From the IMG/VR virus record IMGVR_UViG_3300047316_000386, positions 1-23,882 of that record: a DNA stretch of 23,882 nt; one strand, 5' to 3'. Positions 2,484 through 19,239 of this stretch are shown piece after piece (the first letter of the stretch is position 1; each line of letters starts with the position of its first letter). The position numbers and the translations under genes are program-made. The notes below the pieces were generated by a model, which was given only the letters and a program-made list of their open reading frames with translations, did no database searches and was not told where the DNA came from. The stretch is from a virus.

Positions 2484-2741
2484 GTGGCCGCGCCCCCCGG
2501 CACCCTGGTCTGCGATCAGGACGGCCCCTGGCTGTGCGATTGCTGCGGGCGCGCTGTCTGGTATGTGCGCGGCTCAATGTGGCACGGCCAGGCTCGCATC
2601 TGCCGCGAGTGTTTTTACGTCTGGTATGAATACGGCTTTACCGATCCGGCGAAGATCAAGGCCGAGGTGCTCGCGTGCGAAGCGGCGGGCCGCTTCCCCT
2701 TCCCCTCCACCGGGATCGGCATCGCGAGGGCTGACGCATGA
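2484..2741 (+). CDS. Small zinc-ribbon-like protein
   Basis: An 85-residue protein (GTG start at 2484) with two Cys pairs, C18-x2-C21 (within CDCCG) and C40-x2-C43 (CREC), spaced as in a zinc ribbon or treble clef; C10 and C20 are extra cysteines. Aromatic residues between the pairs (Trp26, Tyr27, Trp33) fit a compact zinc fold. The role is unknown; small zinc-binding proteins in phage early operons often bind DNA or a partner enzyme. The start is uncertain: an in-frame ATG at 2415 exists but would overlap the upstream gene by 60 bases, so I prefer GTG 2484, although its ribosome site is poor. The stop overlaps the next start as ATGA. Confidence 0.6.
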   Translation: MAAPPGTLVCDQDGPWLCDCCGRAVWYVRGSMWHGQARICRECFYVWYEYGFTDPAKIKAEVLACEAAGRFPFPSTGIGIARADA

Positions 2742-3907
2742 GCGGCGGCCACAGCCCCCTCGGCATGTCCGTCCTCGAGCGGCGGTTCTGCTGCCCGGGC
2801 AGCTTGCGTCTCGAGCGCGACCGGCCCGGCACGGAGACGGAATACAGCCGACGCGGGACCGAACTGCACAGCGTCGCCGCTGCGGCCCTGTCAGAAGGCT
2901 GGGACGTGCTCGAGGCGACCCCGGATGATCTTGACGGGCAGGACATCCTGGCGCCCTGGCTGGCCACGGTGCGCCGCGCGTGGGACCACCTGCGCGGCGA
3001 GCTGATGGTGGAGCACCGGTTCAGCCTCGAGGCCCTACACGAACTCTACTGGGGCACGGCTGACGCGGTGGTGCTGGCGCCCCCGCACCTCTGGGTCGGT
3101 GACCTGAAGACCGGCGGCGGACACCCCGTGCCGGTGCGCCGTCCCGACGGCCGGCCGAATTTTCAGCTCGCCGGCTATGCCCTCGGTGTCCTGCAGTCCC
3201 TGCCGCCCGGCACCATCATCAACCAGATTACGCTCTGTGTCGTGCAGCCGCGCCGGAACAGCATCCAGACCACCGAGCTCACCCCGGACGAGGTCATGGA
3301 CCTGGCAGGCGACCTGGTCGAAATCGCCGAGCGGGCGCTGGCGCCCGACGCGCCCCTCGTCCCCGGCGAGCATTGTAGTTTTTGCAGGGGGGCGGTGGTC
3401 TGCCCGGCCCTGCACGAGAGGGCCCTGGCCGTGGCCGCATCCGAATTTGACGATGAGCGCCCGATCGAGGAGCGACGCCCGCGCCCCCCGGCGGACCTGA
3501 CGCCCGAGCAGCTGGCGCTCGTCCTCGACGCCGCGTCCCTGGTCAAGATTTGGATTGCTGCTGTCGAGGCGCACGCCCGGGGCGCGGCCGAGCGTGGCCT
3601 CGTCATTCCCGGCTGGAAGCTCGCTGCCAAGCGCTCCACCCGCAAATGGATCAGCGAGGATGAGGCGTCAGCTGCACTAACATTCCTTCTCGAGGAAAAT
3701 AGATTTGCGCCACCCGAGCTGCTGTCCCCGGCGCAAGCGGAGAAGGCGCTGAAACGCGCGAAGCTCAGCAAGCCGAATAACTGGGACGCGCTCATCACCT
3801 GGACCGACCCGGGAACCACGCTGGTCCCGGCCGACGACCCGCGCCCCGCCGTCGCACCGTCGGCGGTCGCGGCGCTTGAATTTGAAACTGAGAAAGCAAA
3901 GGACTGA
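2738..3907 (+). CDS. DUF2800 family protein, Cas4/AddB-like PD-(D/E)XK nuclease
   Basis: A 389-residue protein matching the phage DUF2800 family (PF10926). The nuclease core shows E42 (RGTELH), D109 (WGTAD), the D122-x-K124 motif (VGDLKTGGG) and Q143-x3-Y147 (QLAGY), the set expected for RecB/Cas4-type PD-(D/E)XK exonucleases. Cysteines 213, 216 and 222 form CX2CX5C and there is a CC pair at 18-19, the pattern that holds a 4Fe-4S cluster in Cas4 and AddB. This points to a metal-dependent DNA exonuclease acting on phage DNA ends, probably in recombination with the adjacent ssDNA-binding protein. The cluster itself is inferred. GAGGG seven bases before the ATG supports the start, which overlaps the upstream stop by four bases. 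The C-terminal 150 residues carry an acidic/Pro-rich linker and a helical region. Confidence 0.87.
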   Translation: MSGGHSPLGMSVLERRFCCPGSLRLERDRPGTETEYSRRGTELHSVAAAALSEGWDVLEATPDDLDGQDILAPWLATVRRAWDHLRGELMVEHRFSLEALHELYWGTADAVVLAPPHLWVGDLKTGGGHPVPVRRPDGRPNFQLAGYALGVLQSLPPGTIINQITLCVVQPRRNSIQTTELTPDEVMDLAGDLVEIAERALAPDAPLVPGEHCSFCRGAVVCPALHERALAVAASEFDDERPIEERRPRPPADLTPEQLALVLDAASLVKIWIAAVEAHARGAAERGLVIPGWKLAAKRSTRKWISEDEASAALTFLLEENRFAPPELLSPAQAEKALKRAKLSKPNNWDALITWTDPGTTLVPADDPRPAVAPSAVAALEFETEKAKD

Positions 3908-3912
3908 AACCG

Positions 3913-4467
3913 ATGGCAAGCACGCCCAAATATGACGGCCCGGTGCTGCGGGTTGGCCCTGGCCGGATTTCATTCCCCAGCATCTTCACTCCCAAGGAGA
4001 CGCCACGCGGTAATCGCTATGACCTGACGCTGCTGCTGCCGCCAGACTATGATTACGTATTCATCACCAAGGCTTTGATTGGCCTTGAGCAGCAGGCGTG
4101 GGGCACGGACCCTAAGAAGTGGCCGGCGCGCGCGCGCACGCACGAGCAGGTCGTGCGCGACTGCTCGGAGAAGCCCCACCTGGCCGGCTACGAGGACGGG
4201 TGGCACTTCGTGCACGCCTCATCGAGCGAGATGCCGAAGGTGGTGTCGTTCGACCCCAACGTGCTCATCACCGACGCGGCCGAGCTCTACGCCGGGCGCT
4301 GGGCGAAGATTTCCTGCCGGCCCTTCATCTACGAAATGAAGGAAGGGATCGGCGTCTCGTTAGGGTTGAATAACATCCAGCTGCTGAAGCGCGACGAAAC
4401 CTTCGGGCGCTCGAGCCCGTCAAAGGATTTCGACGTCGAAGCCGAAGAGATGGCCGAGGATTTCTGA
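3913..4467 (+). CDS. DUF2815 / Enc34-type single-stranded DNA-binding protein
   Basis: A 184-residue protein with the sequence character of the DUF2815 family (PF10991), whose phage Enc34 member is known to bind ssDNA through an OB-like fold. Recognisable parts are the N-terminal VGPGRISFPSIF strand region, the YDLTLLLPP segment near residues 36-44, and the central Trp/Tyr-rich GYEDGWHF region. The tail is acidic and ends in phenylalanine (EAEEMAEDF), like the tails of bacterial SSB and T7 gp2.5 that recruit partner enzymes. It should coat ssDNA made by the helicase, nuclease and polymerase. AAAGGA nine bases before the ATG supports the start. The DUF2800-DUF2815-polymerase neighbourhood is common in temperate phages of proteobacteria. 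Confidence 0.87.
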   Translation: MASTPKYDGPVLRVGPGRISFPSIFTPKETPRGNRYDLTLLLPPDYDYVFITKALIGLEQQAWGTDPKKWPARARTHEQVVRDCSEKPHLAGYEDGWHFVHASSSEMPKVVSFDPNVLITDAAELYAGRWAKISCRPFIYEMKEGIGVSLGLNNIQLLKRDETFGRSSPSKDFDVEAEEMAEDF

Positions 4468-4484
4468 CCCAGGCAGGGGGACGC

Positions 4485-4979
4485 GTGTCTCTGATAATCG
4501 TTCCATGTATGCTCGGAGAGGCAATCAGCTTTGTGCGCGCGTTTCATCGGCACAACAAAGCACCCCTCTCCGGGCTGTTTGCGTGTGGCGCGGCGGATGA
4601 CGGCAAACTGGTGGGTGTGGGCATCGTGGGGCGCCCGGCGGCGCGGGCGCTGCAGGACGGCGTGACCTGTGAGGTGACGAGATGTTGCGTCGCCGGTGAC
4701 GCGCCGAAGAACACGCCGAGCGCGATCTACGGCGCGTTGTGGCGGGCGGCGAAGGCGCTGGGTTGGCGCAGGCTGATCACCTACACGCTGCAGACAGAGA
4801 GCGGAGCGTCGCTGCGTGGAGCCGGGTGGACACTCATCGCTGAGCGCCCGGCGCGTGACCCCAAAGGTTGGCAGAGCCGTGCCGGGCGGGACGAACAAGC
4901 TGTGGTTGGGCACGCAAAATTCTTGTGGGGACGAACCAATGATGCAGTGCTGCACGCTGGCCGCCCGATGGACTGGTAA
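4485..4979 (+). CDS. XF1762-type phage protein (GNAT-like fold suspected)
   Basis: A 164-residue protein resembling the XF1762 group found next to phage family A polymerases. The middle (GLFACGAADDGKLVGVGIVG, then CEVTRCCVAGDAPKN) and the segment around residues 105-120 (LQTESGASLRGAGW) follow the strand-helix order of GNAT acyltransferases: a conserved core strand, a cofactor-loop-like region and a 'SLRAAGW' strand-turn. Acyl transfer is not shown and the biological role is unknown. The start is GTG 4485, with a GGGGG run four bases upstream. It ends three bases before the polymerase gene. Confidence 0.8.
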   Translation: MSLIIVPCMLGEAISFVRAFHRHNKAPLSGLFACGAADDGKLVGVGIVGRPAARALQDGVTCEVTRCCVAGDAPKNTPSAIYGALWRAAKALGWRRLITYTLQTESGASLRGAGWTLIAERPARDPKGWQSRAGRDEQAVVGHAKFLWGRTNDAVLHAGRPMDW

Positions 4980-4982
4980 GCG

Positions 4983-7064
4983 ATGACCCGGTCCCTCTAC
5001 TGGGACTGCGAAACGCGTTCGACCGTCGATCTGCGCAAGACCGGCGTTTACATCTACGCGAGCCACCCCTCCACCTCGGTGACGGTGGCTCGCTTCGCGC
5101 TCGACGGCGAGGCGCCGTGCGAATGGCGCCCCGGCCGCGATCTGCCCCGGCAATATCTCGACGCCCTCGCCGACCCCGACGTGCGCGTGGTCGCGCACAA
5201 TGCCGCGTTCGAACGGATCATCCTCGCCCTCGTCCTGCACCCGCGCTACGGCTGGCCGACGGTCCCGATCAGCCGGTGGCACTGCACCATGGCCCGCGCG
5301 CGGGCTCAGGCGCTGCCTGGCGGGCTTGACGCCGCCGCCAACGCCGCCGGCCTGGACGTGCGCAAAGACCTGCAGGGTCACGCCCTGATGCTGCGCATGT
5401 GCCGCCCGCGCGCGGTGCTCCCCGGCGGCAGCGTCACCTGGTGGGAGGACGAGGAGCGGATGACCCGCCTCTCGGATTATTGCGGCTTCGACGTCAAGGT
5501 GGAGCGCGCCCTCGATCGTAGCCTGCAGCCGCTGCTGCCCGACGAGGTCCATGTCTGGGTCGAGACTGAGATCATCAACGACCGGGGCGTGCGCTTCGAT
5601 CTTGATTTCGTGCGCCAGGCGCGCGTGGTCGGCGAGGAGACGCGCGAGCGCCTCGATGGTGAAATTAAGCGGCTCACTAACGGTGCCGTGGCCAAGGCCA
5701 GCAATGTCACGGATTTAAAGCGCTGGCTGGTCGATCGCGGCGTTGACCTGCGCCGTCCACCGATGGACGATCCGAAGCCGTTCGGGCTCGCGGAGCCAGC
5801 ACCACTGGAAGAGGACGACGAAGCGACCATCGGTGACGAGGATGTGCTGCTCGCCGAGGGCAAGCCTGACGCGCGCGACGAACTGCCCGAACTCCGGCGC
5901 CGGGACGTGCTGCGCCTGCTGGCGAACGAGGACGTCGACCAGCACAGCAAGAACGTCCTGCGGGTGCGCTACGAGGCCGGCATGATCAGCACCCGCAAGC
6001 TGGACGCGCTCCTGCACCGGGCTGATGACGAGGGCGTGGTGCGCGGCCTTTTTGGTTACCATGGGGCTAACACTGGCAGATATATTTCACACGGCCTGCA
6101 GGTGCAGAACCTGCCGCGCGAGACGGTCTCCGATTGGGAAGGGTGCCGCGACCTGCTCGACGGCGGACCTGACCTGGTAGACGCGTTGTGGGGTGCGCCG
6201 TTGCAGATGATCAGCCGCATGCTGCGCGGCGCGATCATCCCCCGCCCCGGCTGCGATATCGCCGCCTCGGATTTCAGCTCGGTCGAGGCCGTAGGCGTCG
6301 CCTGGCTGGCCGGTCAGACAGACCTGCTCGAGGCGTTCGCTCGCCGCGAAAAGATTTACGAGAAGATGGCGGCCGAGGTTTACGGCATTTCGCCCGAGCG
6401 CATCGCACCCGACAGCCGCGAGAGACACGTTGGCAAGACCCTTGTGTTAGGTGCGGGCTACCAGATGGGCTGGTATAAATTTCGTGAGACGGTGCTGGCC
6501 AACACCGGGATTTATCTGACCGAGGGCGAGGCGGTGAACGCGATCCACGTTTATCGCGAGACGTTCGAACGTATCCCGTTTCTGTGGCGCAGCATGAACA
6601 AAGCGGCGATCGACGCCGTGAAAATGCCGGGCGCGACGACACACATAGGCAAAATCCGTTTCCAGCGCGCAGGCAAGTGGTTGCGCATGCGCCTGCCGAG
6701 CGGTCGGTGCATTTGGTATTCGCAGCCCCTCATCGAGCCCGATAAATTCGGTGGCGAAATGCTCACCTACGTGGGCGTCAACCCGAAGACCAAGAAGTGG
6801 GAGCGCGGCCAGACCTACGGCGGGCGCCTGACCGAGAACGCAGTGCAGGGCCTGTGCCGCGACCTGCTCGTGCACGGCATGCTCGCCCTCGAGCGCGAAG
6901 ACTATCAGCCGATCGCCCTGGTGCACGACGAGATCATCTGCGAGCCGGGGGCCTGGCACGGGTCGATCGGCGAGCAGCTCGAGATCATGTGCGCTGCGCC
7001 GGATTGGGCGAAGGGGTTTCCGCTCAGCGCCAAGGGCAGTCGGGGGCTGCGTTATTCAAAATGA
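4983..7064 (+). CDS. Family A DNA polymerase with 3'-5' exonuclease domain
   Basis: A 693-residue replicative polymerase of the phage Pol I/T7 type. The proofreading domain is intact: Exo I D8-x-E10 (WDCE), Exo II N73 with F76-E77 (HNAAFE), Exo III Y166-x3-D170 (YCGFD). The polymerase domain has motif A D430-FSSVE, motif B R481-x3-K485-x7-Y493 and motif C H648-D649-E650 (VHDE). All catalytic residues are present, so it should be active. The position equivalent to E. coli Phe762 is Leu489. Residues about 259-300 form an acidic low-complexity insert (EEDDEATIGDED) between the two domains. The ribosome site (GGTAAG) is weak. It is the core of the phage replication module; its stop overlaps the next ATG (ATGA). 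Confidence 0.96.
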   Translation: MTRSLYWDCETRSTVDLRKTGVYIYASHPSTSVTVARFALDGEAPCEWRPGRDLPRQYLDALADPDVRVVAHNAAFERIILALVLHPRYGWPTVPISRWHCTMARARAQALPGGLDAAANAAGLDVRKDLQGHALMLRMCRPRAVLPGGSVTWWEDEERMTRLSDYCGFDVKVERALDRSLQPLLPDEVHVWVETEIINDRGVRFDLDFVRQARVVGEETRERLDGEIKRLTNGAVAKASNVTDLKRWLVDRGVDLRRPPMDDPKPFGLAEPAPLEEDDEATIGDEDVLLAEGKPDARDELPELRRRDVLRLLANEDVDQHSKNVLRVRYEAGMISTRKLDALLHRADDEGVVRGLFGYHGANTGRYISHGLQVQNLPRETVSDWEGCRDLLDGGPDLVDALWGAPLQMISRMLRGAIIPRPGCDIAASDFSSVEAVGVAWLAGQTDLLEAFARREKIYEKMAAEVYGISPERIAPDSRERHVGKTLVLGAGYQMGWYKFRETVLANTGIYLTEGEAVNAIHVYRETFERIPFLWRSMNKAAIDAVKMPGATTHIGKIRFQRAGKWLRMRLPSGRCIWYSQPLIEPDKFGGEMLTYVGVNPKTKKWERGQTYGGRLTENAVQGLCRDLLVHGMLALEREDYQPIALVHDEIICEPGAWHGSIGEQLEIMCAAPDWAKGFPLSAKGSRGLRYSK

Positions 7065-9948: not shown

Positions 9949-12156
9949 CTAGGGCGGGGCGTTCGGGTTGATCAGCGGGTTCGGTGGGTGCAACAACTCC
10001 TGCGCGCGAGCTCGCGTTCGCGCCTGCGCCCGGGCGGCCCGGGCTGGTTCAGCGGCACCCTGGAGCGCCTTCACGACTACGCTGCCCCAGCCCGGTGAGA
10101 TGTAGTTTGCCACCCCGTGCGCAGCCCACCCGGGACCGTGGCGCTTCAACATATCCATGACGTTCGGCAACGTATCGCTGCCGGGGGCGCGCGCCAGCTC
10201 CGACGCCGTCGCCACGCGGCGCAGATCATCGCGCACGTTCCACAGCCGTTGCATCTGCTCGTCGGTGATCGATTTGTAGGGGTTCAAATCGGTCGAGGGC
10301 GTCTTCCGCATGTCGACCACGTTTTTCATGAAACGCTGGAAGTCACTAAAGCGGACGGGCGTCGTGGTCTGGCTCAGCATGCCGCGCGTCTTATCTTGCA
10401 ACACCTGCATCGCCTCAATCTTCTGCGCGTGCGATCGGTAGGTGTTGACCATGTCCGCGTAGCCGGGCGCCATTTTCTCGATCTCGCCGTCGAGAACGTC
10501 CGAGATGGTGCGCAGCTGGTGCCCCTCGTAGTGCAGGTTGGGGTCTTCCGCCGCCATCCGTTTGTCGGTGAGCCGGTCGATGCTGCGGCGCAGCCCCCAC
10601 GCCTCCTGCGGGTGCATCTCTTTCGGGGTGCCATCGGGGTTGGTCAGCCGGTCGCGTAGATCGCCTAACACCTTCTGCAGCTGCGGGTTTTGACGGTTCT
10701 CGGGAATGGCGAGCGTTTTGTCGATCTGCTCGAGGAGCGGGCGCATGGAGACATCGCCCCGCACGTTGTCCTCGCCGAACACACGCGGCTTGGCTTCCTC
10801 GATAGCGGTCTTTTGCGCCTGCTCCTCGTTATGAACGCTGACCTCGTCGCCGGTCGTGTCCTTGAGGTGCCCACGCCGCAGCTCGTCGTTGCGCTGCGCC
10901 GTCGCCTTGATGTCCTGCGACACCGCCGTGTCCTCGCCCCCGGCAGATTTCAGCTCGCGCGCCAGCTCGGCCGTGAGCTCCTGCTCGGCAGCGCTGACGG
11001 TGACGCCCGAGATGTAGGCGTTGCGATCGGGCACGCCGATCTCGCTGTTCTCCATCAGCTTCCGGCCCTCGGCGGAAGCGCGATACGCTGCCGTCTCCTC
11101 GGGCGTGAACGTCGCCAGCTGCGGCGGCGTGACCATTGCCCCCGCCGGCTGTGGTTGGCCCGGCGCGCCGCCTGGCGCTGGCGCAGGGGCCCCCGGCGGC
11201 GGCTTACCCGCCGCAGCCGCCTCACGCTCGGCCAGCGGCACGGAGCTCAGGGGGCGGCTGAACCCTGTCGGCCTGGCGCCGAACGCCTGCGCCGCAGCGG
11301 AAACCTCCGGGGTGACCCCGAACGTGCCGGTGACGGGGTTGAGGGTCGCAGCTTCCGCGATCGGCTCCGTCGCGCCGTAGAGTGGCGTGCGCAGCATGTT
11401 CGGCATCGCCATCCGGATTTCGCCGGTCTTCGTGTCGCGGGCCAGCGGCAGCACGTCGCCATATTCTGTGTCTGGCGCCGGGGCCAGCCAATTGTGGAGC
11501 GAGCCCGCCGCGCGATAGCTCTCGCCGATCGCCTGCCCGGCCGCGACGTCGGGAGTGTCTGGGCCGATCGGGCGGCCGTAGTCGTCGAAGCGCGGTGTAG
11601 GACCCGGCGGCGGGGTCGCCGCCGCTGCCGGCGCGAGCCCCTCCATGCGGCGCAGCAGATCATCGCCAGACGGCCCTTCGCCCTGAGCGGGTGCCGGTGT
11701 CGCTCCCGCCGCTGCACCGCCCCCAGTGCCCGCCGCAGGGGCAAGACGGTCCATCCGCTTCTGGAGGTCGTCGGCGCTGGGTCCGGTATCGGCCACGGCG
11801 GGCTTCCCGCTCAGTTCGAAATGCATCGGGTCGCGCGTGTCGCCCGACCATGTGCCACCCCAGGTCAACCCGTGCGCGGCGGCGAGATCATTGACATTCG
11901 CCGGCAGGTCGCTGGTGGTCTTGGCGCCGCGCGCGTTGCTGGCCGGGTTGATGTCGATCGCATGCCCGAAGGAATGCTGTGACGGCGTGTCGGTGCCGGC
12001 GATGTTGCGCGGGTTGTAGCCGCCGCTGCTCTTCGCATCGATCTTGTATCCGGCACCCTCGAGGTCGGCGAGGAAGCCGCCGAACGCGTCCGCAGCATCC
12101 TTCGCGACGGTGAACTTGACGCCCGACGGCGAGGTGATCTGCGTGAGGTCCGGCAT
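9949..12156 (-). CDS. Virion ejection protein with N-terminal M15 peptidase domain
   Basis: A 735-residue protein, last gene of the late operon. Residues about 1-118 are a peptidase M15 (VanY/D-Ala-D-Ala carboxypeptidase-like) domain: SxGGYNxR at 43-50, S59-x-H61-SFGHAID68 (zinc ligands H61 and D68) and DPMH112-FE (third zinc ligand H112). The remainder has Pro/Ala/Gly-rich linkers (about 119-200 and 315-345), then a long helical region with many charged residues and a basic Ala/Arg-rich tail (ARAQARTRARAQ). This is the layout of a large internal virion protein that carries a peptidoglycan-cutting domain, used to open the cell wall during DNA entry. In position it corresponds to P22 gp16. A free endolysin role cannot be excluded. 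It starts one base after the upstream stop. Confidence 0.85.
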   Translation of the reverse strand: MPDLTQITSPSGVKFTVAKDAADAFGGFLADLEGAGYKIDAKSSGGYNPRNIAGTDTPSQHSFGHAIDINPASNARGAKTTSDLPANVNDLAAAHGLTWGGTWSGDTRDPMHFELSGKPAVADTGPSADDLQKRMDRLAPAAGTGGGAAAGATPAPAQGEGPSGDDLLRRMEGLAPAAAATPPPGPTPRFDDYGRPIGPDTPDVAAGQAIGESYRAAGSLHNWLAPAPDTEYGDVLPLARDTKTGEIRMAMPNMLRTPLYGATEPIAEAATLNPVTGTFGVTPEVSAAAQAFGARPTGFSRPLSSVPLAEREAAAAGKPPPGAPAPAPGGAPGQPQPAGAMVTPPQLATFTPEETAAYRASAEGRKLMENSEIGVPDRNAYISGVTVSAAEQELTAELARELKSAGGEDTAVSQDIKATAQRNDELRRGHLKDTTGDEVSVHNEEQAQKTAIEEAKPRVFGEDNVRGDVSMRPLLEQIDKTLAIPENRQNPQLQKVLGDLRDRLTNPDGTPKEMHPQEAWGLRRSIDRLTDKRMAAEDPNLHYEGHQLRTISDVLDGEIEKMAPGYADMVNTYRSHAQKIEAMQVLQDKTRGMLSQTTTPVRFSDFQRFMKNVVDMRKTPSTDLNPYKSITDEQMQRLWNVRDDLRRVATASELARAPGSDTLPNVMDMLKRHGPGWAAHGVANYISPGWGSVVVKALQGAAEPARAARAQARTRARAQELLHPPNPLINPNAPP

Positions 12157-12157
12157 G

Positions 12158-13684
12158 TCAGTGCGGCATCGCCGAGAGGGACATCAAGCCCGGCGTCTTC
12201 TCGACAAGGTCGAGCGTCTTGCCGAACCGGATGCGCTCGTCCTTGGTCATCCCGTTCACCATCTTGGTCCGCTGCTCCGGCGTCAGCATGTCGAACATGA
12301 ATGCGCGCGGATCGTGCGTGTTCTGCCAGTCATTCAGGAACCGGGTATAATTCTGCGGATGCCCGTCGGTCTGCTCGAAATCTGACATCGCCATCTGCTT
12401 CATCCGCTCCATGGCGATCAGCGGCTTGACGACGTCCTTGTTAGCGATCGTTGACAGGTGCGAGCTCGGGTTGCCGCTGATCGCCGACGCCAGCGCCTGG
12501 TCGGATCGACCGGACATCCCCTGAGCGTTGACATACTGCTGCATATATTTGGCGACCTTGTCATAGTCGGCCTGCTGGATCGTCTGCGCGTCCCAGCCCA
12601 TGCTCGTGGCTGCCGTCATCAGGAAGCTTTTCGCCCGGTTGAGGGCATCAGCCCCCTGACCGGTGGTGACATCTCCCGACGCAAGGATCGACTGCACCTG
12701 CGCGAGCGGGAAGAGCCGCTGCTGGAACGTCGTCGTGGCCTCCTTGTCCCGCGCGTAGAGGTCGCTGCTCGCCTTCCAGCGCGCCTCGTCATCCGGCCGG
12801 GGGCCGGTCAGCACCGGGGGCGTGGGGGTCGCGGCCGGGGCGCCTGGCGCGGGTGCTGCGGTGGCGCCTGACGTTGCAGCGGGGCCGGGAGGCGGCGCCC
12901 CCACACCGAAGTTGCCGGGCGGCGCCAGCTTGAGCCGCTGCAGCAGCTGCCCTTGTGTGATCGCCTCGGGCTGACCGGTGTCAGGGTTGCGGTAGCCTTG
13001 AACGGGCGCGTTCCACTGCTCGGCCGTCAGTCCGAGCGGGATCGCCGCCCCCGAGGGTGTCCGCAGCCCGCCGCCTTGATCCGGTGGAGCCTGCGTGGTG
13101 CCAACGATCTGACCACCCTGGTTGATCGTGGTGGGCGTGCCGACGCGCGTGTGAAACTGGTCCATGGCGCTGCTGGCCGCCAGGTTCATCTGTTTGACGT
13201 AGGCCGGAACGTCGGCATCGTTCTGCGGCACCGCCGCCATCTCTTCATCGACGCCGGGGGCGCCTGCCGCCTTCAGGCGGCCGAGCACCGCCATGACCTG
13301 GGCCCGCGTCGCGTTCTCCGGCAGTCCGCCGACGGCACCATAGGTCATGCCGAGGAGCGTATGCGCGCGGGCGAGCTGCTCGGTCGTGCGTGCCGACGCG
13401 CCCTCGGTCGCGCCGGCCATGCCCATCGGCATGCGCGGGTCCTTGGCGGCGAGCGCCGTCGCCTTTGAGTAGTCGACCGCGCCAGTGTTGGGGTCGGTCG
13501 ACTGCTGCAACGCCTCACCCCACGCCTGCTGCGATTGCAGCGCGCGCATGCGCATGACGCCCTGCGCCGCCTCGGTGGCGCGCGAGATCGAGCCCAGCAT
13601 GTTGACCTGCGGCGGGTTAGCGAGGCTGTCGATCACGCTGGCGTTGTGCTGCGCACCAATCAGGGCGTTGATGCTGTCGCTCAT
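12158..13684 (-). CDS. Putative internal virion / DNA-ejection protein
   Basis: A 508-residue protein, mainly helical and Ala/Met/Gln-rich, with a Pro/Ala/Gly-rich low-complexity linker at about residues 260-300 separating two helical halves. No catalytic motif is seen. It lies between a gp7-like gene and the M15-bearing ejection protein, which is the position of P22 gp20, so a role as an ejection protein passing from the capsid into the cell envelope is likely. Direct family assignment is not possible by eye. The start overlaps the upstream stop by one base (TAATG); the ribosome site is weak, consistent with translational coupling. Confidence 0.7.
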   Translation of the reverse strand: MSDSINALIGAQHNASVIDSLANPPQVNMLGSISRATEAAQGVMRMRALQSQQAWGEALQQSTDPNTGAVDYSKATALAAKDPRMPMGMAGATEGASARTTEQLARAHTLLGMTYGAVGGLPENATRAQVMAVLGRLKAAGAPGVDEEMAAVPQNDADVPAYVKQMNLAASSAMDQFHTRVGTPTTINQGGQIVGTTQAPPDQGGGLRTPSGAAIPLGLTAEQWNAPVQGYRNPDTGQPEAITQGQLLQRLKLAPPGNFGVGAPPPGPAATSGATAAPAPGAPAATPTPPVLTGPRPDDEARWKASSDLYARDKEATTTFQQRLFPLAQVQSILASGDVTTGQGADALNRAKSFLMTAATSMGWDAQTIQQADYDKVAKYMQQYVNAQGMSGRSDQALASAISGNPSSHLSTIANKDVVKPLIAMERMKQMAMSDFEQTDGHPQNYTRFLNDWQNTHDPRAFMFDMLTPEQRTKMVNGMTKDERIRFGKTLDLVEKTPGLMSLSAMPH

Positions 13685-14472
13685 TACACAGACCCACTGT
13701 TTGGATAAGCGCCCAACGGCGTATCGCCAGCGCCACCGCCCGCCGCCCTTGGCGAGTTCAGGTACTTCTGGAAATTGGTGTAATCGAGGTAGTTCTGCGC
13801 GGCCCCCGTGGCCGCGTTGCCGATGCCTTTGATGCCGGCCGCCGTGTCGATCCCCGCCTGGTTGATCATGCTGGCGGATGTGCCGGCCAGGCTGCTGCCG
13901 ATCGATCCGGTCTGCGCGCCCGCGTTCTCACCCAGCGAAGCAATATTGGATGCGCGGGCGAACTGGTTGGTGACGTTGCCCTGCTGCGCGGTGTTCAAAC
14001 CGAGGACGTCGCTGAACCGCTGCTGCGCGATGTTAAACTGATCCTTGTAGGTGCTGTTGGCCAACCCGGTCGCATATCCCGTGATCGCCTTGAGAGCACC
14101 GCCGCTGCTCACGCCTAAGCCCCGCGCGGCGGCGCTGCCGGTCGCCGCCTTGATGCCCTGGTCGAGCGTGAATTTATAGCCTGGCGTGGCCTCGAGCTCG
14201 GCCTGGGTCATCTGCCCCGGCATCATCGCGTCAGCGCGCGAGACGTAGTCGGGCCCGCCACCCGTGCGATCCATCGCCAGCGCATTCATCGTCGGCAGCG
14301 CGGCCTGGCCGGCCGTGTTGTATGGCTGCAGGTCTGAACGGGTTTGAATGTAGCGTTGCTGCGCCTGATTGGCGGCATCCTTGGCAGCGCTCGCCGCCTT
14401 GGAGCTGCCGAGCATCGAGGTGATGCCGCCGATCAGCGCGCTGCCGCCAATAGCTGCTGCTGTCCAAGGCAT
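13684..14472 (-). CDS. Ejection protein, P22 gp7-like
   Basis: A 262-residue protein. It has a short Gly/Ala-rich hydrophobic N-terminus (AAAIGGSALIGGITSMLG, residues 5-22) followed by an Ala/Gln-rich helix (SKAASAAKDAANQAQQ), then a Gly/Ala/Ser/Asn-rich remainder with repeated helical segments. This is the typical look of phage DNA-transfer proteins such as P22 gp7, which form part of the trans-envelope channel. GGAG eight bases before the ATG supports the start. It heads a block of three successive ejection-type genes reading leftward. Confidence 0.75.
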   Translation of the reverse strand: MPWTAAAIGGSALIGGITSMLGSSKAASAAKDAANQAQQRYIQTRSDLQPYNTAGQAALPTMNALAMDRTGGGPDYVSRADAMMPGQMTQAELEATPGYKFTLDQGIKAATGSAAARGLGVSSGGALKAITGYATGLANSTYKDQFNIAQQRFSDVLGLNTAQQGNVTNQFARASNIASLGENAGAQTGSIGSSLAGTSASMINQAGIDTAAGIKGIGNAATGAAQNYLDYTNFQKYLNSPRAAGGGAGDTPLGAYPNSGSV

Positions 14473-14474
14473 GG

Positions 14475-14816
14475 TTAGTTCTCCAACTCCAGCTCGTGCT
14501 CTTCGTCCACCTCGACGCTGTCGGTGCCATGCAGCGCATGAATACAGGCAAACACGACACCCGGCGTTAGCGTCGTCATAGTGTGTTTCACCCCGGCTCG
14601 GATCAGAATGCCCGCAGGCCCGGTATAATCTCCCAGCATCACATCTCCCGCCACCACCCGCATGCTGCCGTAGGCCAGCAGCGTAACGTGGTCATAACGA
14701 TGACTGTGTTGCGGGATGATGGTGCCGGCGTCTGCCACCACGGCGGTTTTGATGAACAGGTCATCAGTCAGCTTGATCTCGGTCGTGATTGGCTGTTGCG
14801 GCGCGCGTTTCATCAT
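14475..14816 (-). CDS. Cupin-fold protein
   Basis: A 113-residue single-domain cupin. The first cupin motif is H37-x-H39-x3-H43-x6-G50 (HSHRYDHVTLLAYG), with His at the usual Glu position; the second is around residues 65-80 (TGPAGILIRAGVKH) with H78. Four histidines could bind one metal ion. The N-terminus and the acidic tail (VEVDEEHELELEN) lie outside the barrel. It overlaps the upstream 2-oxoglutarate oxygenase gene as ATGA, so both are made together. Substrate is unknown; cupins in phage tail operons are uncommon and may have an enzymatic, sugar-binding or structural role. Confidence 0.8.
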   Translation of the reverse strand: MMKRAPQQPITTEIKLTDDLFIKTAVVADAGTIIPQHSHRYDHVTLLAYGSMRVVAGDVMLGDYTGPAGILIRAGVKHTMTTLTPGVVFACIHALHGTDSVEVDEEHELELEN

Positions 14817-15364
14817 TCCACCCGCATTGATATGATGACAGTGATCCTGTCGGTTTCGCCGTCGTTCACGGTGCTATGCGTCTTGAGGTTGTCGAATAAC
14901 CAAACCTCACCGATTTGCATTACCACCCGTTCCTCTTCGCAGGTGCTATAGCAAAGTGGATTGGTTGCCAGCGGCATATAGGCTTTGGTTTTGAAGAACT
15001 CCGGATGCCAGCGTCCTCGATCATCATGCGGCGCAACCTGCTGTCCCGGCGGCACGCGCGTAATCAATATCCCGCCGAGCTGCACTGCCTCCAGCCGAGC
15101 CATCAGCCCAAAAACCAACGGACGCAGGTGCGGAAGCGCATGCCACGCCGGGTAAAATACCGGCGTGAAGGGTTCATTGAACGAGGATGTGGAGGTCAGC
15201 TCCTGAGGATCGCGAAACCGCACCCAAATGTCGTCAGTGCCTTCGAACGACCCCTTGCCGCCCGTGCGCGCAGTATGTTGGTTCCACAGTTCCGGCTGGC
15301 GATAAAGCTCCAGCACCAACGGCAACACATCGATGCCGTTCGCAACTTGTTGGAAGTTTCGCAT
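14813..15364 (-). CDS. Aspartyl/asparaginyl beta-hydroxylase-like 2OG-Fe(II) oxygenase
   Basis: A 183-residue protein with the metal triad H113-x-D115 (APHDDRG) and H163, and the 2-oxoglutarate-binding R173 inside the segment GEVWLFDNLKTHS...NDGETDR, which is characteristic of Asp/Asn beta-hydroxylase-type dioxygenases. The catalytic set is complete, so it should be an active non-haem iron oxygenase, probably hydroxylating a protein side chain; the substrate is unknown. ATG 15364 is preceded by a G-rich ribosome site (GGGGG); a longer frame reaching 15790 has no support because it overlaps the upstream fibre gene. It sits between tail-fibre and ejection genes, overlapping both neighbours by 1-4 bases. 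Confidence 0.87.
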   Translation of the reverse strand: MRNFQQVANGIDVLPLVLELYRQPELWNQHTARTGGKGSFEGTDDIWVRFRDPQELTSTSSFNEPFTPVFYPAWHALPHLRPLVFGLMARLEAVQLGGILITRVPPGQQVAPHDDRGRWHPEFFKTKAYMPLATNPLCYSTCEEERVVMQIGEVWLFDNLKTHSTVNDGETDRITVIISMRVE

Positions 15365-15900
15365 CACACCCCCGCCACCGCGTTCCACACGCCGCCGCCC
15401 CGGCTGACGTAGAGCGTCGCCCCGACCGCCCCTGACGTGTCGCTGTAGAGGCTTCCGATGGGCCATGAGGCCGTTGGCGGCCCGGCTCCCGCCGTCCACG
15501 TCGGGCCGGTGCTGCCGCCCGTCTGCAGGCTCGTGAACGTCCCCACGGTGCCTGTGAGGGGCCCCGTCAGCGTGCCGCCGCTCAATGGCAGCATCGCCGC
15601 CCGGATGGCCGTGTCCTCGGCCGCACGCGCCGTCGCCTCGGTGCTGTCGGCAACCCGGCGGGCGACGGTCTCGGCGAGGATCGATGCCGCGAGCTGGTCG
15701 TCGCGGGTGGACAGCCCGTTGTCGGCTTCCACGAGCGACTGCGTGATGGCGTCGAGGTCGACGCCGTCCGCGTCGCCCGTGCGCGCCCACAGGGCCCTGA
15801 AGAAGCCGCGCCAGGCGGGGGTCAGCAGCCCGGTTACGTCATCCAGCAGGGGCGCCGACGGGAATGCTGCGCTGAACTGGGTTGCCTTAGGGGCTGCCAC
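15364..15900 (-). CDS. Tail fibre/structural protein with fibre-type repeats
   Basis: A 178-residue protein (GTG start at 15900). The N-terminal part (about 20-45) contains a TPAWRGFFRALW segment often found in phage tail proteins; residues 45-105 are helical with Ala/Thr/Glu; the C-terminus (from LSGGTLTGPLTG through IGSLYSDT and LYVSRGGGVWNAV) shows the LSGGTLTGPL fibre motif and the final GxLYxDTSG...LYVSxGGGVWxxV unit common in phage fibres. It probably forms part of a tail or head fibre. Start choice is limited by the upstream gene stop at 15903-15905; the ribosome site is weak. Its stop overlaps the oxygenase ATG. Confidence 0.75.
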   Translation of the reverse strand: MAAPKATQFSAAFPSAPLLDDVTGLLTPAWRGFFRALWARTGDADGVDLDAITQSLVEADNGLSTRDDQLAASILAETVARRVADSTEATARAAEDTAIRAAMLPLSGGTLTGPLTGTVGTFTSLQTGGSTGPTWTAGAGPPTASWPIGSLYSDTSGAVGATLYVSRGGGVWNAVAGV

Positions 15901-15902
15901 CT

Positions 15903-16724
15903 TTAGTGCCCGATCGCGATCCAGTTGAAATTGGCAGTGAACCCAAAGCCGCTCGGCGTCACAGGGGACGGGAATATAGCCACGATCGTGGCTTTCGTTT
16001 TGTCTACCGGAACAGCCGAATAGGTCATGATGTGCGGCGTGCCCTCGACACTGCTGTCGCTCGACGTCACCACGATCGCGTCGCACGCATTGGCAAACGC
16101 GCGCGGGAACGTGAGGGTGAGAACCGCGCTTGACCCGCCAGTGAAAGCGATTGTGGAGGCACCGCCCTGCATGTTGGTGACCGGCGCACCGGAAATCGTG
16201 TTAATCTGGCTTTGCAGATTGGCGTCTTCAATCTGCATGTAGGTCACCCAGTCGGTGACCGTTTGCGCAGCTAACGTATCATAGCTCTCCTGCGCCGTTA
16301 TGAAGGCGTCAAGGTTCGCCTGGATGGTGGTGTCTGCGTTGGCGCGAATGGTGGCTTCCGCCGCAACCGCGCCGCTGATTGCGCTTGTGACGCCCAGGTA
16401 ATTCAGCGCATCAGCCACGGTCGGCGCGGACACCGCCGGATACATCGCCGCCGACACCACGGTGGTGCTGGGAGCGCTCCAGATCAGAGTGCCGGCGGCG
16501 TCGTGCAGCTCGAGCTGGTAGTCGCCGTCGCCCCACATCGAGCACTGCCCGGCCGCGTCGAGCGTGATCGGGTTGGTGTTGACCGCCGCCTGATCCGGGT
16601 CCTTCCACGTCGTCTTCGGCGTGGTAGTGCCCTTCACGTAGGTGGTGATGGACCCACCCGCATAGGGCCTGCCGTTCGCATCGCAGAATTGCGGTAGCGG
16701 CTGCAGCAGGATCGGGGCGGTCAT
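15903..16724 (-). CDS. Tail fibre protein with virion-binding N-terminal domain
   Basis: A 273-residue protein. Residues about 12-75 (FCDANGRPYAGGSITTYVKG, then TTPKTTW, NTNPITLDAAGQ and WGDGDYQLEL) match the head/tail-binding domain shared by many podovirus fibres and tailspikes. A helical stalk (about 105-175) is followed by a C-terminal beta domain ending in FNWIAIGH, a motif common at the tips of receptor-binding proteins. It is probably a fibre or needle-like tail component; the position after the gp10-like gene corresponds to P22 gp26. AGGGAG seven bases before the ATG supports the start, which overlaps the upstream stop (ATGA). Confidence 0.8.
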   Translation of the reverse strand: MTAPILLQPLPQFCDANGRPYAGGSITTYVKGTTTPKTTWKDPDQAAVNTNPITLDAAGQCSMWGDGDYQLELHDAAGTLIWSAPSTTVVSAAMYPAVSAPTVADALNYLGVTSAISGAVAAEATIRANADTTIQANLDAFITAQESYDTLAAQTVTDWVTYMQIEDANLQSQINTISGAPVTNMQGGASTIAFTGGSSAVLTLTFPRAFANACDAIVVTSSDSSVEGTPHIMTYSAVPVDKTKATIVAIFPSPVTPSGFGFTANFNWIAIGH

Positions 16725-18223
16725 GCGGCGGCTCCCTGTTTCTTTGGTGCGGGATTGGGATCGTCGGCCAGGTCATATGTGATCCACGCGCCCTGCAGCG
16801 CGCACGGCGCCACGGTCGACCAGGTCAATTTGAAAATGCGATCGCGCGCCATGCCGAGCCGCTGCCATTGCAGGCTGGTGAGAGTATCGCCCAGGCCGCC
16901 GAGAGAGGTGGACACGGGGTTGCCGAAATGCCTGCCGCGATCGTCGGACCACGACAGCGAAACGAGGTTGTCACGCGCAGCAACCGACGGCCCGGTGCCG
17001 GTTTCCATATCCGCCAGGAACTCGCGATAGACTATGCGCCGCGCCTCCTGGATCAGGTGCGGAAAGCAGCGCTCGCGCTTGATCGGAAAGCCAGCATCGC
17101 TGCTCGCGTCCGGGTCGAGCGCGTAGAGGTTGGCAGCTTGCCGGTCGCCCGCGAGCAGCGTGCCGAAGCATGGATAGACGCACATGATCCTGTGCGCGTG
17201 ATCATTGCCGTTGCTGTCGGTAAACGCCCACTCGTGCCATTCCCCGGTGAGCAGGTCATAGACCCAGGTATGGTCGGCCGTCGGGAACGTCAGCACGTAA
17301 AAGATGTGGCCGCCGATTTGATAACAGAACCCGATCGCGTCATCGATGCGCGAATATTTGCGGATCGCATTTTCGATCGCGAAAGTGGAAATCCGTTTGC
17401 CCCGGTATCCCGCCACCATCATCACGATGCCCTTGCCGGTGCGATCGCGGCTCAGGAAAAATGCAGTGTTGTCATTGCCGGCGAGCGAGTATTTCGCCGC
17501 GCACCCGTAGTCGATGAACACACCCTGCACCGAAGCGAACTGGCTCAGCAGGAACCCGGTCGTGGGGTCGATGACGGCGGCGTCGTAAAAGACCTCGGTG
17601 GTGCGCTCGCCGACCAGAATGATCTCCTTGTTTGCCACGACCAGCGACACCAGCAGGTCGGCAGCGGCGCTCTTGCTGGCACGGTCCAGCTCGTCAAATG
17701 TCAGCGCCAGCGCGCCGCTCCAATACATCTGCTGCGTGCCAGGCCGGTTGAAGACGAAGTAGGTGTCGATGTAATCGACGCGATCGGCGCCGAAGAAGTT
17801 GGGATCATCGATCGACGCGAACGATGTGTCGTCGTCGAGGTGCACGCTCCAGCCGTTCGGGCTGCCATCGACCACGACCAGGTCGATGGTGTTGTCGGCC
17901 AGGCTGGCGGGCGTGACGAGCCCGGGCGTGATGTCGCCCAGGTGCACATAGTCCCAGTCGGCGATCCCTGCCGGTGGCGTGATGCGGTAGAGCCCCTTTC
18001 CGATGACGGCATAAATTTTCCCGTTGCTCGCCTGGCGCAGCGCACGCACCGGGAGCTCGGGCAGGTAGCGCAGCAGCACCAGCCCCGGCGTCGGGTAGTG
18101 CGCGGCCGGCGTGGGCTCGCCATCCTGCGGCGGCTGCGGCTCGATGAAAAGGTTCAAACAGCGCTGCGCGCTCGCGATGACGCTGCGCGCCTGATAGGCG
18201 CCGCCGGTCAGTGGTATCTTCAT
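16721..18223 (-). CDS. Packaged-DNA stabilisation / tail hub protein, P22 gp10-like
   Basis: A 500-residue protein. The N-terminus (MKIPLTGGAYQARSVIASAQ, then CLNLFIEP) and the C-terminal segment around residues 418-450 (LSWSDDRGRHFGNP, later LQWQRLGMARDRIFKL) match the phage stabilisation protein family (P22 gp10 and relatives): an N-terminal 'R...N.Y' region, beta-propeller-like repeats in the middle, and SDDxGRxF...WxRLGxARDRxF near the end. In P22 this protein sits under the portal and holds packaged DNA while receiving tailspikes. ATG 18223 is chosen because it overlaps the upstream stop by four bases; an upstream in-frame start at 18289 adds unrelated residues. Confidence 0.87.
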   Translation of the reverse strand: MKIPLTGGAYQARSVIASAQRCLNLFIEPQPPQDGEPTPAAHYPTPGLVLLRYLPELPVRALRQASNGKIYAVIGKGLYRITPPAGIADWDYVHLGDITPGLVTPASLADNTIDLVVVDGSPNGWSVHLDDDTSFASIDDPNFFGADRVDYIDTYFVFNRPGTQQMYWSGALALTFDELDRASKSAAADLLVSLVVANKEIILVGERTTEVFYDAAVIDPTTGFLLSQFASVQGVFIDYGCAAKYSLAGNDNTAFFLSRDRTGKGIVMMVAGYRGKRISTFAIENAIRKYSRIDDAIGFCYQIGGHIFYVLTFPTADHTWVYDLLTGEWHEWAFTDSNGNDHAHRIMCVYPCFGTLLAGDRQAANLYALDPDASSDAGFPIKRERCFPHLIQEARRIVYREFLADMETGTGPSVAARDNLVSLSWSDDRGRHFGNPVSTSLGGLGDTLTSLQWQRLGMARDRIFKLTWSTVAPCALQGAWITYDLADDPNPAPKKQGAAA

Positions 18224-19239
18224 GTCGTCGCCGCCTGCAGTTCGGCATTGGACAACGCGCGCGACCAGTAGCGAACCCGGCGCACCCACCCATTGAGATA
18301 TGCCGCTGCGCCCGGATAGTCGTTGCCTGCCGCCAGTGTGGTCAGCCCGGCCGGCATCCCGACGCTATAGGAAACGGTCGCGCCGGCGTTGAATGATCCT
18401 ACGGCCGTCGTCCCGTTCCAGGCCGAAGCAAATTTCGAGACAGCATTTGCTGCCGTGGTTCCCACAGCGCCCGAGAATGTCGTCGCACTGGCAACCGTTG
18501 TCCCGATTGTCGCAACGGCTGCGCTGACGCCTTGCGCCCGCAGGAACAGCCGATTGGCGGCGGAACCGTCCGAGATGCAGCACGCGTCGCGGACCAGAGC
18601 AGCGGAAGGGTTCGGCGATTGCCCGACCATGTATTCGATCGCCAGCGTGCTCGTCGCACTGTTGAGCCACCCCGCAGTTGACATGCTGCAAGCCTCGGCA
18701 GCACGGGCCACGCTGGCACCAGTTGTCGGTATCCAGCTCGTCGGGTAACCGTAATTGCTGGCCTCCAGCTGGGCATTGAGCACCGATCCGGTGACCGTTA
18801 GCGTAAGTGTCCCGCTGCTTGGCGTGAATACCAGCGACACGCGCGCCGGAAACGCTCCGGTGCCAGTCAACGGCCCCGCCGTCGATGCTCCGGTGAGCGT
18901 GATCGTTCCCGTGCCGTAGAACGACAGCACGTAAGCCTGCGCGGCGACAGCGACCGACTGGGTGCCCAGCGTCGCGCTGTTCAGTAGGATGTTAGTTCTG
19001 CCATCCTCGAGCAGCAGGCCCCTGGGGACATGCGTAACCGGATCGTAATCCCAGCGTGGCGTCCCGGATGTCGCCGTCTGCAGCGTGCCGGTGACGTCGA
19101 AATACGTCCCCACCGACGCACGAGTGAACGTGAGACGCGGGTCGAGCGTGCCCGGCGCCATGAAGTTAAGATCAAGCGCGGGCCGCCCCGTCTTGACTGC
19201 GACGGCCTGGCGACCCACGCATCCAAGCCCGAAAAACAT
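18220..19239 (-). CDS. Structural protein with lectin-like (LamG) domain
   Basis: A 339-residue protein. Residues about 22-85 (LDLNFMAPGTLDPRLTFTRASVGTYFD, PRWDYDPV and RGLLLEDGRTNIL in order) form a segment seen in many phage tail/fibre proteins. The rest looks all-beta and ends in a concanavalin A/LamG-like motif (WVRRVRYWSRALSNAELQA), a fold that binds carbohydrate. A role in adsorption to host surface sugars is likely. ATG 19239 overlaps the upstream stop by one base; an in-frame start at 19407 would lie inside the upstream gene and gives a non-family N-terminus. Confidence 0.8.
   Translation of the reverse strand: MFFGLGCVGRQAVAVKTGRPALDLNFMAPGTLDPRLTFTRASVGTYFDVTGTLQTATSGTPRWDYDPVTHVPRGLLLEDGRTNILLNSATLGTQSVAVAAQAYVLSFYGTGTITLTGASTAGPLTGTGAFPARVSLVFTPSSGTLTLTVTGSVLNAQLEASNYGYPTSWIPTTGASVARAAEACSMSTAGWLNSATSTLAIEYMVGQSPNPSAALVRDACCISDGSAANRLFLRAQGVSAAVATIGTTVASATTFSGAVGTTAANAVSKFASAWNGTTAVGSFNAGATVSYSVGMPAGLTTLAAGNDYPGAAAYLNGWVRRVRYWSRALSNAELQAATT

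Follow-up and report, generated by a model that had tools for sequence, protein, structure and literature searches.

Two enzyme-like genes, a putative oxygenase and a cupin, lie immediately before an ejection gene in the soil phage fragment analysed here (the window, that is, the whole stretch of 23,882 bases, with a G+C content of 64.8%), and may bear on how the insoluble, membrane-inserting ejection proteins of podophages stay competent and how they switch at infection. The order of minus-strand transcription is Hc3, Gp53-like fibre, second fibre-type protein, oxygenase, cupin, ejection protein, and the 508-aa and 735-aa proteins, with the following features:

16721..18289, minus strand: head closure protein Hc3 (P22 gp10-like; phrog_578, E 1.5e-96)
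15903..16724, minus strand: fibre protein with a Gp53-like C-terminal domain (PF21882, Gp53-like_C, E 4e-7)
15364..15906, minus strand: fibre-type protein directly upstream of the oxygenase; relatives of the gene occur only in the closest loci
14813..15364, minus strand: 2OG-Fe(II) oxygenase, 183 aa, ATG start (PF05118; HxD...H...R active site)
14475..14816, minus strand: 113-aa cupin of the metal type with four His and, in addition, C91 and H93 (alignment and AlphaFold model)
13684..14472, minus strand: small P22 gp7-like DNA-ejection protein, N-terminus Met-Pro-Trp (phrog_598, E 6e-18); proposed substrate
14467..14469, minus strand: Pro2 codon (CCT) of the ejection protein, read from the sequence; proposed modification site
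12158..13684, minus strand: second ejection-module protein, 508 aa, in the position of P22 gp20; homologues detectable in relatives
9949..12156, minus strand: third ejection-module protein, 735 aa, in the position of P22 gp16 (phrog_1768, E 2.4e-12, residues 4-125)

The fibre-type gene ends 1 base inside the start of the oxygenase gene, the oxygenase stop and the cupin start share 4 bases (ATGA), and the cupin stop and the start of the ejection gene are 2 bases apart, so these four genes look translationally coupled. The initial annotation had placed a four-histidine cupin, overlapping the oxygenase, between fibre and ejection genes, and the reading frames and the Pfam and PHROG matches of the neighbours bear this out. 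The ejection gene matches phrog_598 but not the Pfam family P22_gp7, which the ejection protein of a related locus (L124) passes. The N-terminal domain of the 735-aa protein matches endolysin families, and searches of Pfam and PHROG gave no match for the 508-aa protein. On the plus strand of the same fragment, positions 2738-7064 carry a replication module with an exonuclease (phrog_69) and a DNA polymerase (phrog_17).

The oxygenase passes Pfam PF05118 (Asp_Arg_Hydrox) with E 8e-12 and 45.7 bits (cut-off 22.6). Its residues H113, D115, H163 and R173 are invariant in an alignment of 33 rows of relatives, confirming that the active site is complete, as first described. The AlphaFold model (pLDDT 92) and this conservation indicate the double-stranded beta-helix fold with the iron-binding residues and the 2OG-binding Arg of the family, and the protein is predicted to be a 2OG-dependent hydroxylase of PF05118. 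A profile search of solved structures with the oxygenase ranks L-proline cis-4-hydroxylase (E 1.3e-7) and proline 3-hydroxylase (6.8e-7) highest, both ahead of AspH (2.6e-4). L-proline cis-4-hydroxylase (4p7w) and L-proline 3-hydroxylase type II (1e5r) share with it the double-stranded beta-helix, the HxD...H motif and the C-terminal Arg, and the HxD, which gives the complete triad, aligns with theirs. The fold matches (Z 14.3 and 15.3, rmsd 2.8 and 2.5, 166 and 147 residues aligned, respectively) are among the best, not the sole best, and VIA-align Z values of 14-16 are common to many 2OG oxygenases and single out none. These proline hydroxylases have chains of 260-292 aa and act on free proline, whereas the oxygenase of the window has 183 aa, is phage-borne and is tied to an ejection gene; their extra C-terminal part is absent from it, the model aligning with chain residues ~1-178. 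AspH (5apa, 5jqy) shares the Pfam family and the fold (Z 14.2, rmsd 3.0, 154 aligned) at 16-17% identity, but it has no Asp in the triad, where the oxygenase of the window has HxD, and its larger entries have a TPR domain, for which 183 aa are too few; the features that mark AspH are thus not found here. Because AspH lacks the triad Asp and the nearest solved structures are L-proline hydroxylases, the Asp/Asn hydroxylation suggested initially is not favoured. Within a known enzyme family, the oxygenase forms a new branch. It did not match the NCBIfam equivalog model of the lipid A hydroxylase LpxO, and neither it nor the cupin matched the PADLOC models of anti-phage defence systems.

The cupin passed no Pfam cupin cut-off (best Cupin_7, E 0.028, 14.6 vs 27 bits), and the related cupin of L042 passes Cupin_2 (34.6 vs 27.2 bits). 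The AlphaFold model (pLDDT 88) resembles solved small cupins, and H37, H39, H43, H78, C91 and H93 are invariant in 34 of 34 alignment rows; the model matches together with the invariant H37, H39, H43 and H78 place the protein in the cupin superfamily by both fold and metal ligands. The four-His Mn cupins of the TM1459 type (1vj2, 5wsd) are found with profile E 0.005-0.007 and fold E ~4e-5, although TM1459 is cellular and the cupin of the window is 16-19% identical to them; like it, they are small cupins with four His ligands and a nearby Cys. All four His are intact in 82/82 distinct cupins of oxygenase loci, compared with 0/67 of the cupins found with a GNAT, 0/11 of those fused to SET and 2/69 of those standing alone. 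Since the site is intact in 82/82 against 0/78 at GNAT or SET loci, the metal chemistry of the cupin goes with the oxygenase. The two intact stand-alone cupins are taken to be those of Xanthomonas siphophages, which show the full motif: in phages Mallos and Elanor (L137 3453-3818, L138 3450-3815), full-His cupins lie beside a pyrophosphohydrolase gene and away from any ejection gene.

In the closest loci the oxygenase is 70-82% identical to that of the window. In comparisons with 12 loci encoding a 72-82% identical protein, dN was 0.15-0.26 and dS 1.4-3.7 (undefined in one), with 38-52% of third positions identical, which speaks against a chance finding. Hc3 of the phages in these comparisons is typically 28-33% identical to that of the window, a contrast with the oxygenase that is biased, the loci having been found via the oxygenase. 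The saturated dS rules out a recent transfer as the cause of the oxygenase similarity. The oxygenase and the cupin are both old and under purifying selection. The initial annotation had named mobile cargo as one outcome that would speak against its reading; recent mobile cargo was rejected, because third positions are saturated and the ejection gene nearly always comes along.

A cupin lies within 1.5 kb of the oxygenase in 109 of 125 oxygenase loci (89 of them distinct when keyed by 600 bases; from L056 on, some contigs of L001-L054 recur). Several of the remaining 16 loci end beside the oxygenase, and most of the others have a GNAT instead. Downstream, a profile search detected a gp7-like protein within 2.5 kb in 55 of the 89 distinct loci, and most of the other 34 have a different, similarly built small protein with a hydrophobic N-terminus (by eye and N-terminal call). 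In 102 loci, the genes upstream of the oxygenase fall into 27 sequence families (an approximate figure owing to simple ORF picking, some of the upstream genes being errors of frame choice), and the ejection proteins that follow fall into 6. Directly upstream stands a fibre gene in the window; in L041, L091 and L102 there are lysis genes, in L125 the terminase and in L039 a gene of connector type. By this gene order, the oxygenase-cupin pair is not linked to the fibre. The survey proposed initially, for the pair between fibre and gp7-like genes, had a divided outcome: in viral, phage and prophage loci alike, the gene that follows nearly always encodes a small gp7/gp14-like ejection protein, and the upstream gene is variable. 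The prophage hosts of oxygenase loci include Paraburkholderia, Cupriavidus and Sphingobium, as well as metagenome bins.

Some loci depart from the usual arrangement. About 600-800 extra bases with ORFs inside separate oxygenase and cupin in L017 (5446-6097), L087 (4887-5570) and L023 (2724-3525), possibly an inserted element, and a reading frame between oxygenase and GNAT after position 6558 of L052 and L053, absent from sister loci, is possibly an HNH-type insertion, judged by eye. The cupin precedes the oxygenase in L034 (4379-5271), L363 (5628-6537) and L548 (8989-9953); in the latter two the ejection gene is still next, with a Met-Pro start where readable. One 49-kb virus record (L538) has two oxygenase copies (30-569 and 37949-38488), nearly 38 kb apart, which may reflect an overlap of the termini or the presence of a second gene.

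The slot before the ejection gene is occupied by other enzymes in other phages: by oxygenase and GNAT in Pseudomonas phage PfAn1, Limnohabitans phage DC33 and a Sphingobium prophage, by oxygenase alone in MW202665, by a cupin-SET fusion in Pseudoalteromonas phage PH1 and MW202744, by GNAT and cupin in Bordetella phage BPP-1 (bbp24-bbp23-bbp22) and MW202722, and by cupin alone in DSL-LC05, Amaethon, VvAW1 and H4/4. No recognised enzyme was found in the slot of KF-1, MW202475 and VSN-002. The unit moves together, since in BPP-1, MW202722, DC33 and H4/4 the whole of it, with a short ejection-type protein, precedes a portal or head-tail connector gene. The 'short tail fiber' cupins of PHROG 12032, 24280 and 34170, including bbp23 of BPP-1, stand in the same slot before a small ejection-type protein and are profile relatives of the cupin of the window, but nearly all are without metal ligands, and no oxygenase stands next to them. 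In P22 (gene 14 - gene 7) and T7 (gene 13 - gene 14), a small gene likewise directly precedes the small ejection protein; P22 gp14 (DUF2824) and T7 gp13 (PF11090) gave no match to oxygenase, cupin, GNAT or SET profiles. A relationship of T7 gp13 and P22 gp14 to GNATs was unsupported (hhalign E 0.21 and 0.45, respectively).

The type of enzyme in the slot covaries with residue 2 of the ejection protein. The sample comprised 393 loci, 390 of them with at least one module, found via oxygenase, cupin, GNAT or ejection protein; the enzymes served as the sampling anchors, apart from a few ejection-anchored phage records and an MPWAAA start pattern. For 358 of the 390 loci there is a call of residue 2 in the gene that follows, and 32 have no start call. 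The window itself (L055) was left out of the counts, as were the pattern loci L236-L355, which had been chosen for Pro; the siphophages L137 and L138 were removed for cluster counts, and L019 also for the ejection-body tree. Pro2 was found in 104 of 107 calls at loci with oxygenase and without GNAT and in 0/251 with all other enzyme sets, by a start-calling rule adopted after results had been seen in place of an ATG-preferring rule, under which 24 calls at the former loci were non-Pro. In the former class, Pro2 was called in 100 of 103 loci with oxygenase and cupin and in 4/4 with oxygenase alone, one of these (L019) being a doubtful call; the three calls other than Pro are artefacts of start calling, as L001 and the duplicate locus L056 read ATC-Pro-Trp and L359 reads GTG-Pro-Trp. 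Oxygenase with GNAT goes with Val2 (58/60, Pro2 0/60), as does GNAT alone (13/13, Pro2 0/13), and GNAT with cupin goes with Ser2 (67/72, Pro2 0/72). Examples are Pro2 at the oxygenase-cupin locus of a prophage in Paraburkholderia strain BL25I1N1, Val2 in PfAn1 and Ser2 in BPP-1. Where the cupin stands alone (n=94, one of them, L137, a siphophage gene), 83 proteins have Thr2, five Ser2, three Ala2 and none Pro2, and with cupin-SET (n=12) ten have Ser2, two Val2 and none Pro2. As a background, 41 of 323 other genes with an ATG start in these loci have Pro2. After clustering of the ejection proteins at 70% identity, Pro was found in 43/43 clusters with oxygenase and without GNAT vs 0/106 of the rest, and at 50% identity in 17/17 vs 0/54 (Fisher 1e-16), the 50% clusters being scored by majority state and five being mixed in enzyme class. 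In three of the mixed clusters, Pro proteins occur together with non-Pro ones, and there residue 2 follows the enzyme, the L001/L056 artefacts aside.

Among 43 non-redundant N-termini of the Pro class, residue 3 is F or W in 41, and residues 4-5 and 7-16 vary (1.7-2.7 bits). Pro2 and F/W3 are kept even before apparent non-AUG starts. In L025 (6896 onward; L026-L028 are similar), L029 (6893) and L001 (6896), the ejection gene seemingly starts with ATA, ATT or ATC followed by Pro-Phe or Pro-Trp, and in L025 and L029 AAGGAG stands 8 bases ahead; from the sequence, non-AUG starts preserving Pro2 are possible in L025, L029 and L001. The MPWAAA search gave at least 120 viral loci, in which ejection-like genes were judged by ORF length, N-terminal composition and reading. 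Among the 120 matches listed, 12 were ejection-like, and ten of these have oxygenase and cupin upstream; of the other two, L288 has a four-His cupin only and L343 neither.

A scan with the L288 cupin yielded 37 new loci (L515-L551), which were analysed apart. Oxygenase and Pro2 are both present in 23 of them, five are in cupin-oxygenase order (L548 reads MPMGWV), and in nine Pro2 stands without an oxygenase being found. Two of these nine end early upstream, and the rest represent five lineages (L515-517, L542, L543, L545 and L546) in which a four-His cupin accompanies MP[WFI]; a PF05118 search of the 38-kb record of L545 gave no match. A strict rule leading from oxygenase to Pro was therefore rejected, and by these lineages the partner of Pro2 is the oxygenase, the four-His cupin, or the two together. 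In the oxygenase tree (65 rows), the main split separates a cupin clade with Pro from a GNAT clade with Val (SH-aLRT 99), so that on this tree the association comes near to a single event that has long been retained. In the ejection-body tree, the two traits agree in 96/96 rows with 10 changes each, but only one independent pair lies on supported branches. Residue 2 could be co-inherited with the adjacent enzyme genes; in cupin-only phages, the first base of codon 2 has to be A because of the ATGA overlap.

The link of enzyme type with residue 2 suggests, at the level of sequence comparison, that the enzymes chemically finish the ejection protein. Cupin enzymes that act on protein N-termini include ADO and the cysteine oxidases of plants. 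Met can be removed when residue 2 is Pro, Val, Ser, Thr, Gly or Ala, so each class would expose a defined N-terminal residue. P22 gp7 loses its first 20 residues to host OpdA (a record note and PMC8402733), and ~60% of the burst remains when these residues are deleted (PMC8402733); this trimming is a precedent for processing of this N-terminus. The T7 counterpart of the ejection protein is insoluble alone, ejected first, and reaches the outer membrane (PMC8954989).

The tentative explanation that we propose, at somewhat short of even chances, is that the oxygenase and the metal cupin modify the adjacent ejection protein as dedicated maturation factors, most likely at its N-terminal Pro. Oxidation at the N-terminus is favoured because of the exposed residues, the precedent of gp7 processing and the existence of cupins acting on N-termini. 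Host methionine aminopeptidase would remove Met1, and the ejection protein would then begin with Pro, with an aromatic residue behind it. This Pro or a residue nearby might be hydroxylated by the Fe(II)/2OG oxygenase, while the four-His cupin might bind the N-terminus, complete the oxidation, or both. The modification would precede packing of the hydrophobic ejection protein and would presumably benefit infection. That the pair serves the ejection protein is likelier than the exact site. In related phages, other enzymes would be matched to other N-termini, GNAT with Ser or Val and cupin-SET with Ser. A broader and somewhat unlikely version is that, in short-tailed phages, the interchangeable enzymes of the slot form an N-terminal modification code for injected virion proteins, including an N-terminal-proline oxygenase; oxygenase and metal cupin would then correspond to Pro, oxygenase and GNAT to Val, and GNAT and cupin, as well as cupin-SET, to Ser. 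In the open-access literature, no account turned up of phage oxygenases or cupins modifying ejection proteins, and neither the enzyme slot nor its link to residue 2 was found in print there.

The enzymes might also act on the ejection protein elsewhere than at residue 2, with Pro2, Val2 and Ser2 being passengers of the 5' end of the gene, which we consider rather unlikely. Residue 2 is a few bases from the cupin or GNAT stop, it tracks two oxygenase clades in what is essentially one split, and the single supported independent pair in the ejection-body tree fits such hitchhiking as well; yet the following residues vary while Pro2 and F/W3 persist, even where the start is non-AUG, and a change of enzyme is accompanied by a change of the residue in some homologous clusters. 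A structural or chaperone role in the virion for the cupin, and perhaps for the oxygenase, in place of a modifying one is improbable. Against PHROG 12032, 'short tail fiber protein', the cupin itself scores E 0.0027 and its relatives 1e-12 and 7e-8; relatives match the families labelled 'short tail fiber protein' and 'tail fiber adhesin', and profile-profile comparison by hhalign reaches E 1e-11. Most of the tail-fibre-labelled relatives have lost the metal site, which would suit a structural part, but the site is intact in every cupin at oxygenase loci, the active site of the oxygenase is invariant and its dN is low.

An action of the pair on the host, as LpxO-like hydroxylation of lipid A or the cell surface or as oxidation of free amino acids, has a small probability. 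PF05118 includes LpxO-like surface hydroxylases, the GNAT-clade oxygenase of L124 gives a weak LpxO match (21 bits vs a cut-off of 500), and the nearest solved structures act on free L-proline; against this, the pair is linked to the ejection gene and not to host-range or metabolic genes, and the enzyme type covaries with the ejection N-terminus. The tail fibre is hardly probable as the target and was rejected as a partner: a fibre gene does stand directly upstream in the window, but this neighbour changes between loci while the oxygenase stays 70-82% identical in the closest ones, and the 27 upstream families vs 6 downstream argue against it. Accordingly, of the initial suggestion that the pair acts during virion assembly on tail or ejection proteins, the ejection part is retained and the fibre part is not. 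The alternative enzymes of the slot, and how they relate to the N-terminus of the ejection protein, did not figure in the initial annotation.

Modification of the ejection protein by the oxygenase and the cupin, if true, would account for phage genes that currently carry the labels 'short tail fiber' cupin, 'acetyltransferase' or 'aspartyl hydroxylase'. The match of slot to residue, if true, would be readable directly and cheaply at the N-terminus of a virion protein, and an oxygen-requiring step would become part of virion maturation.
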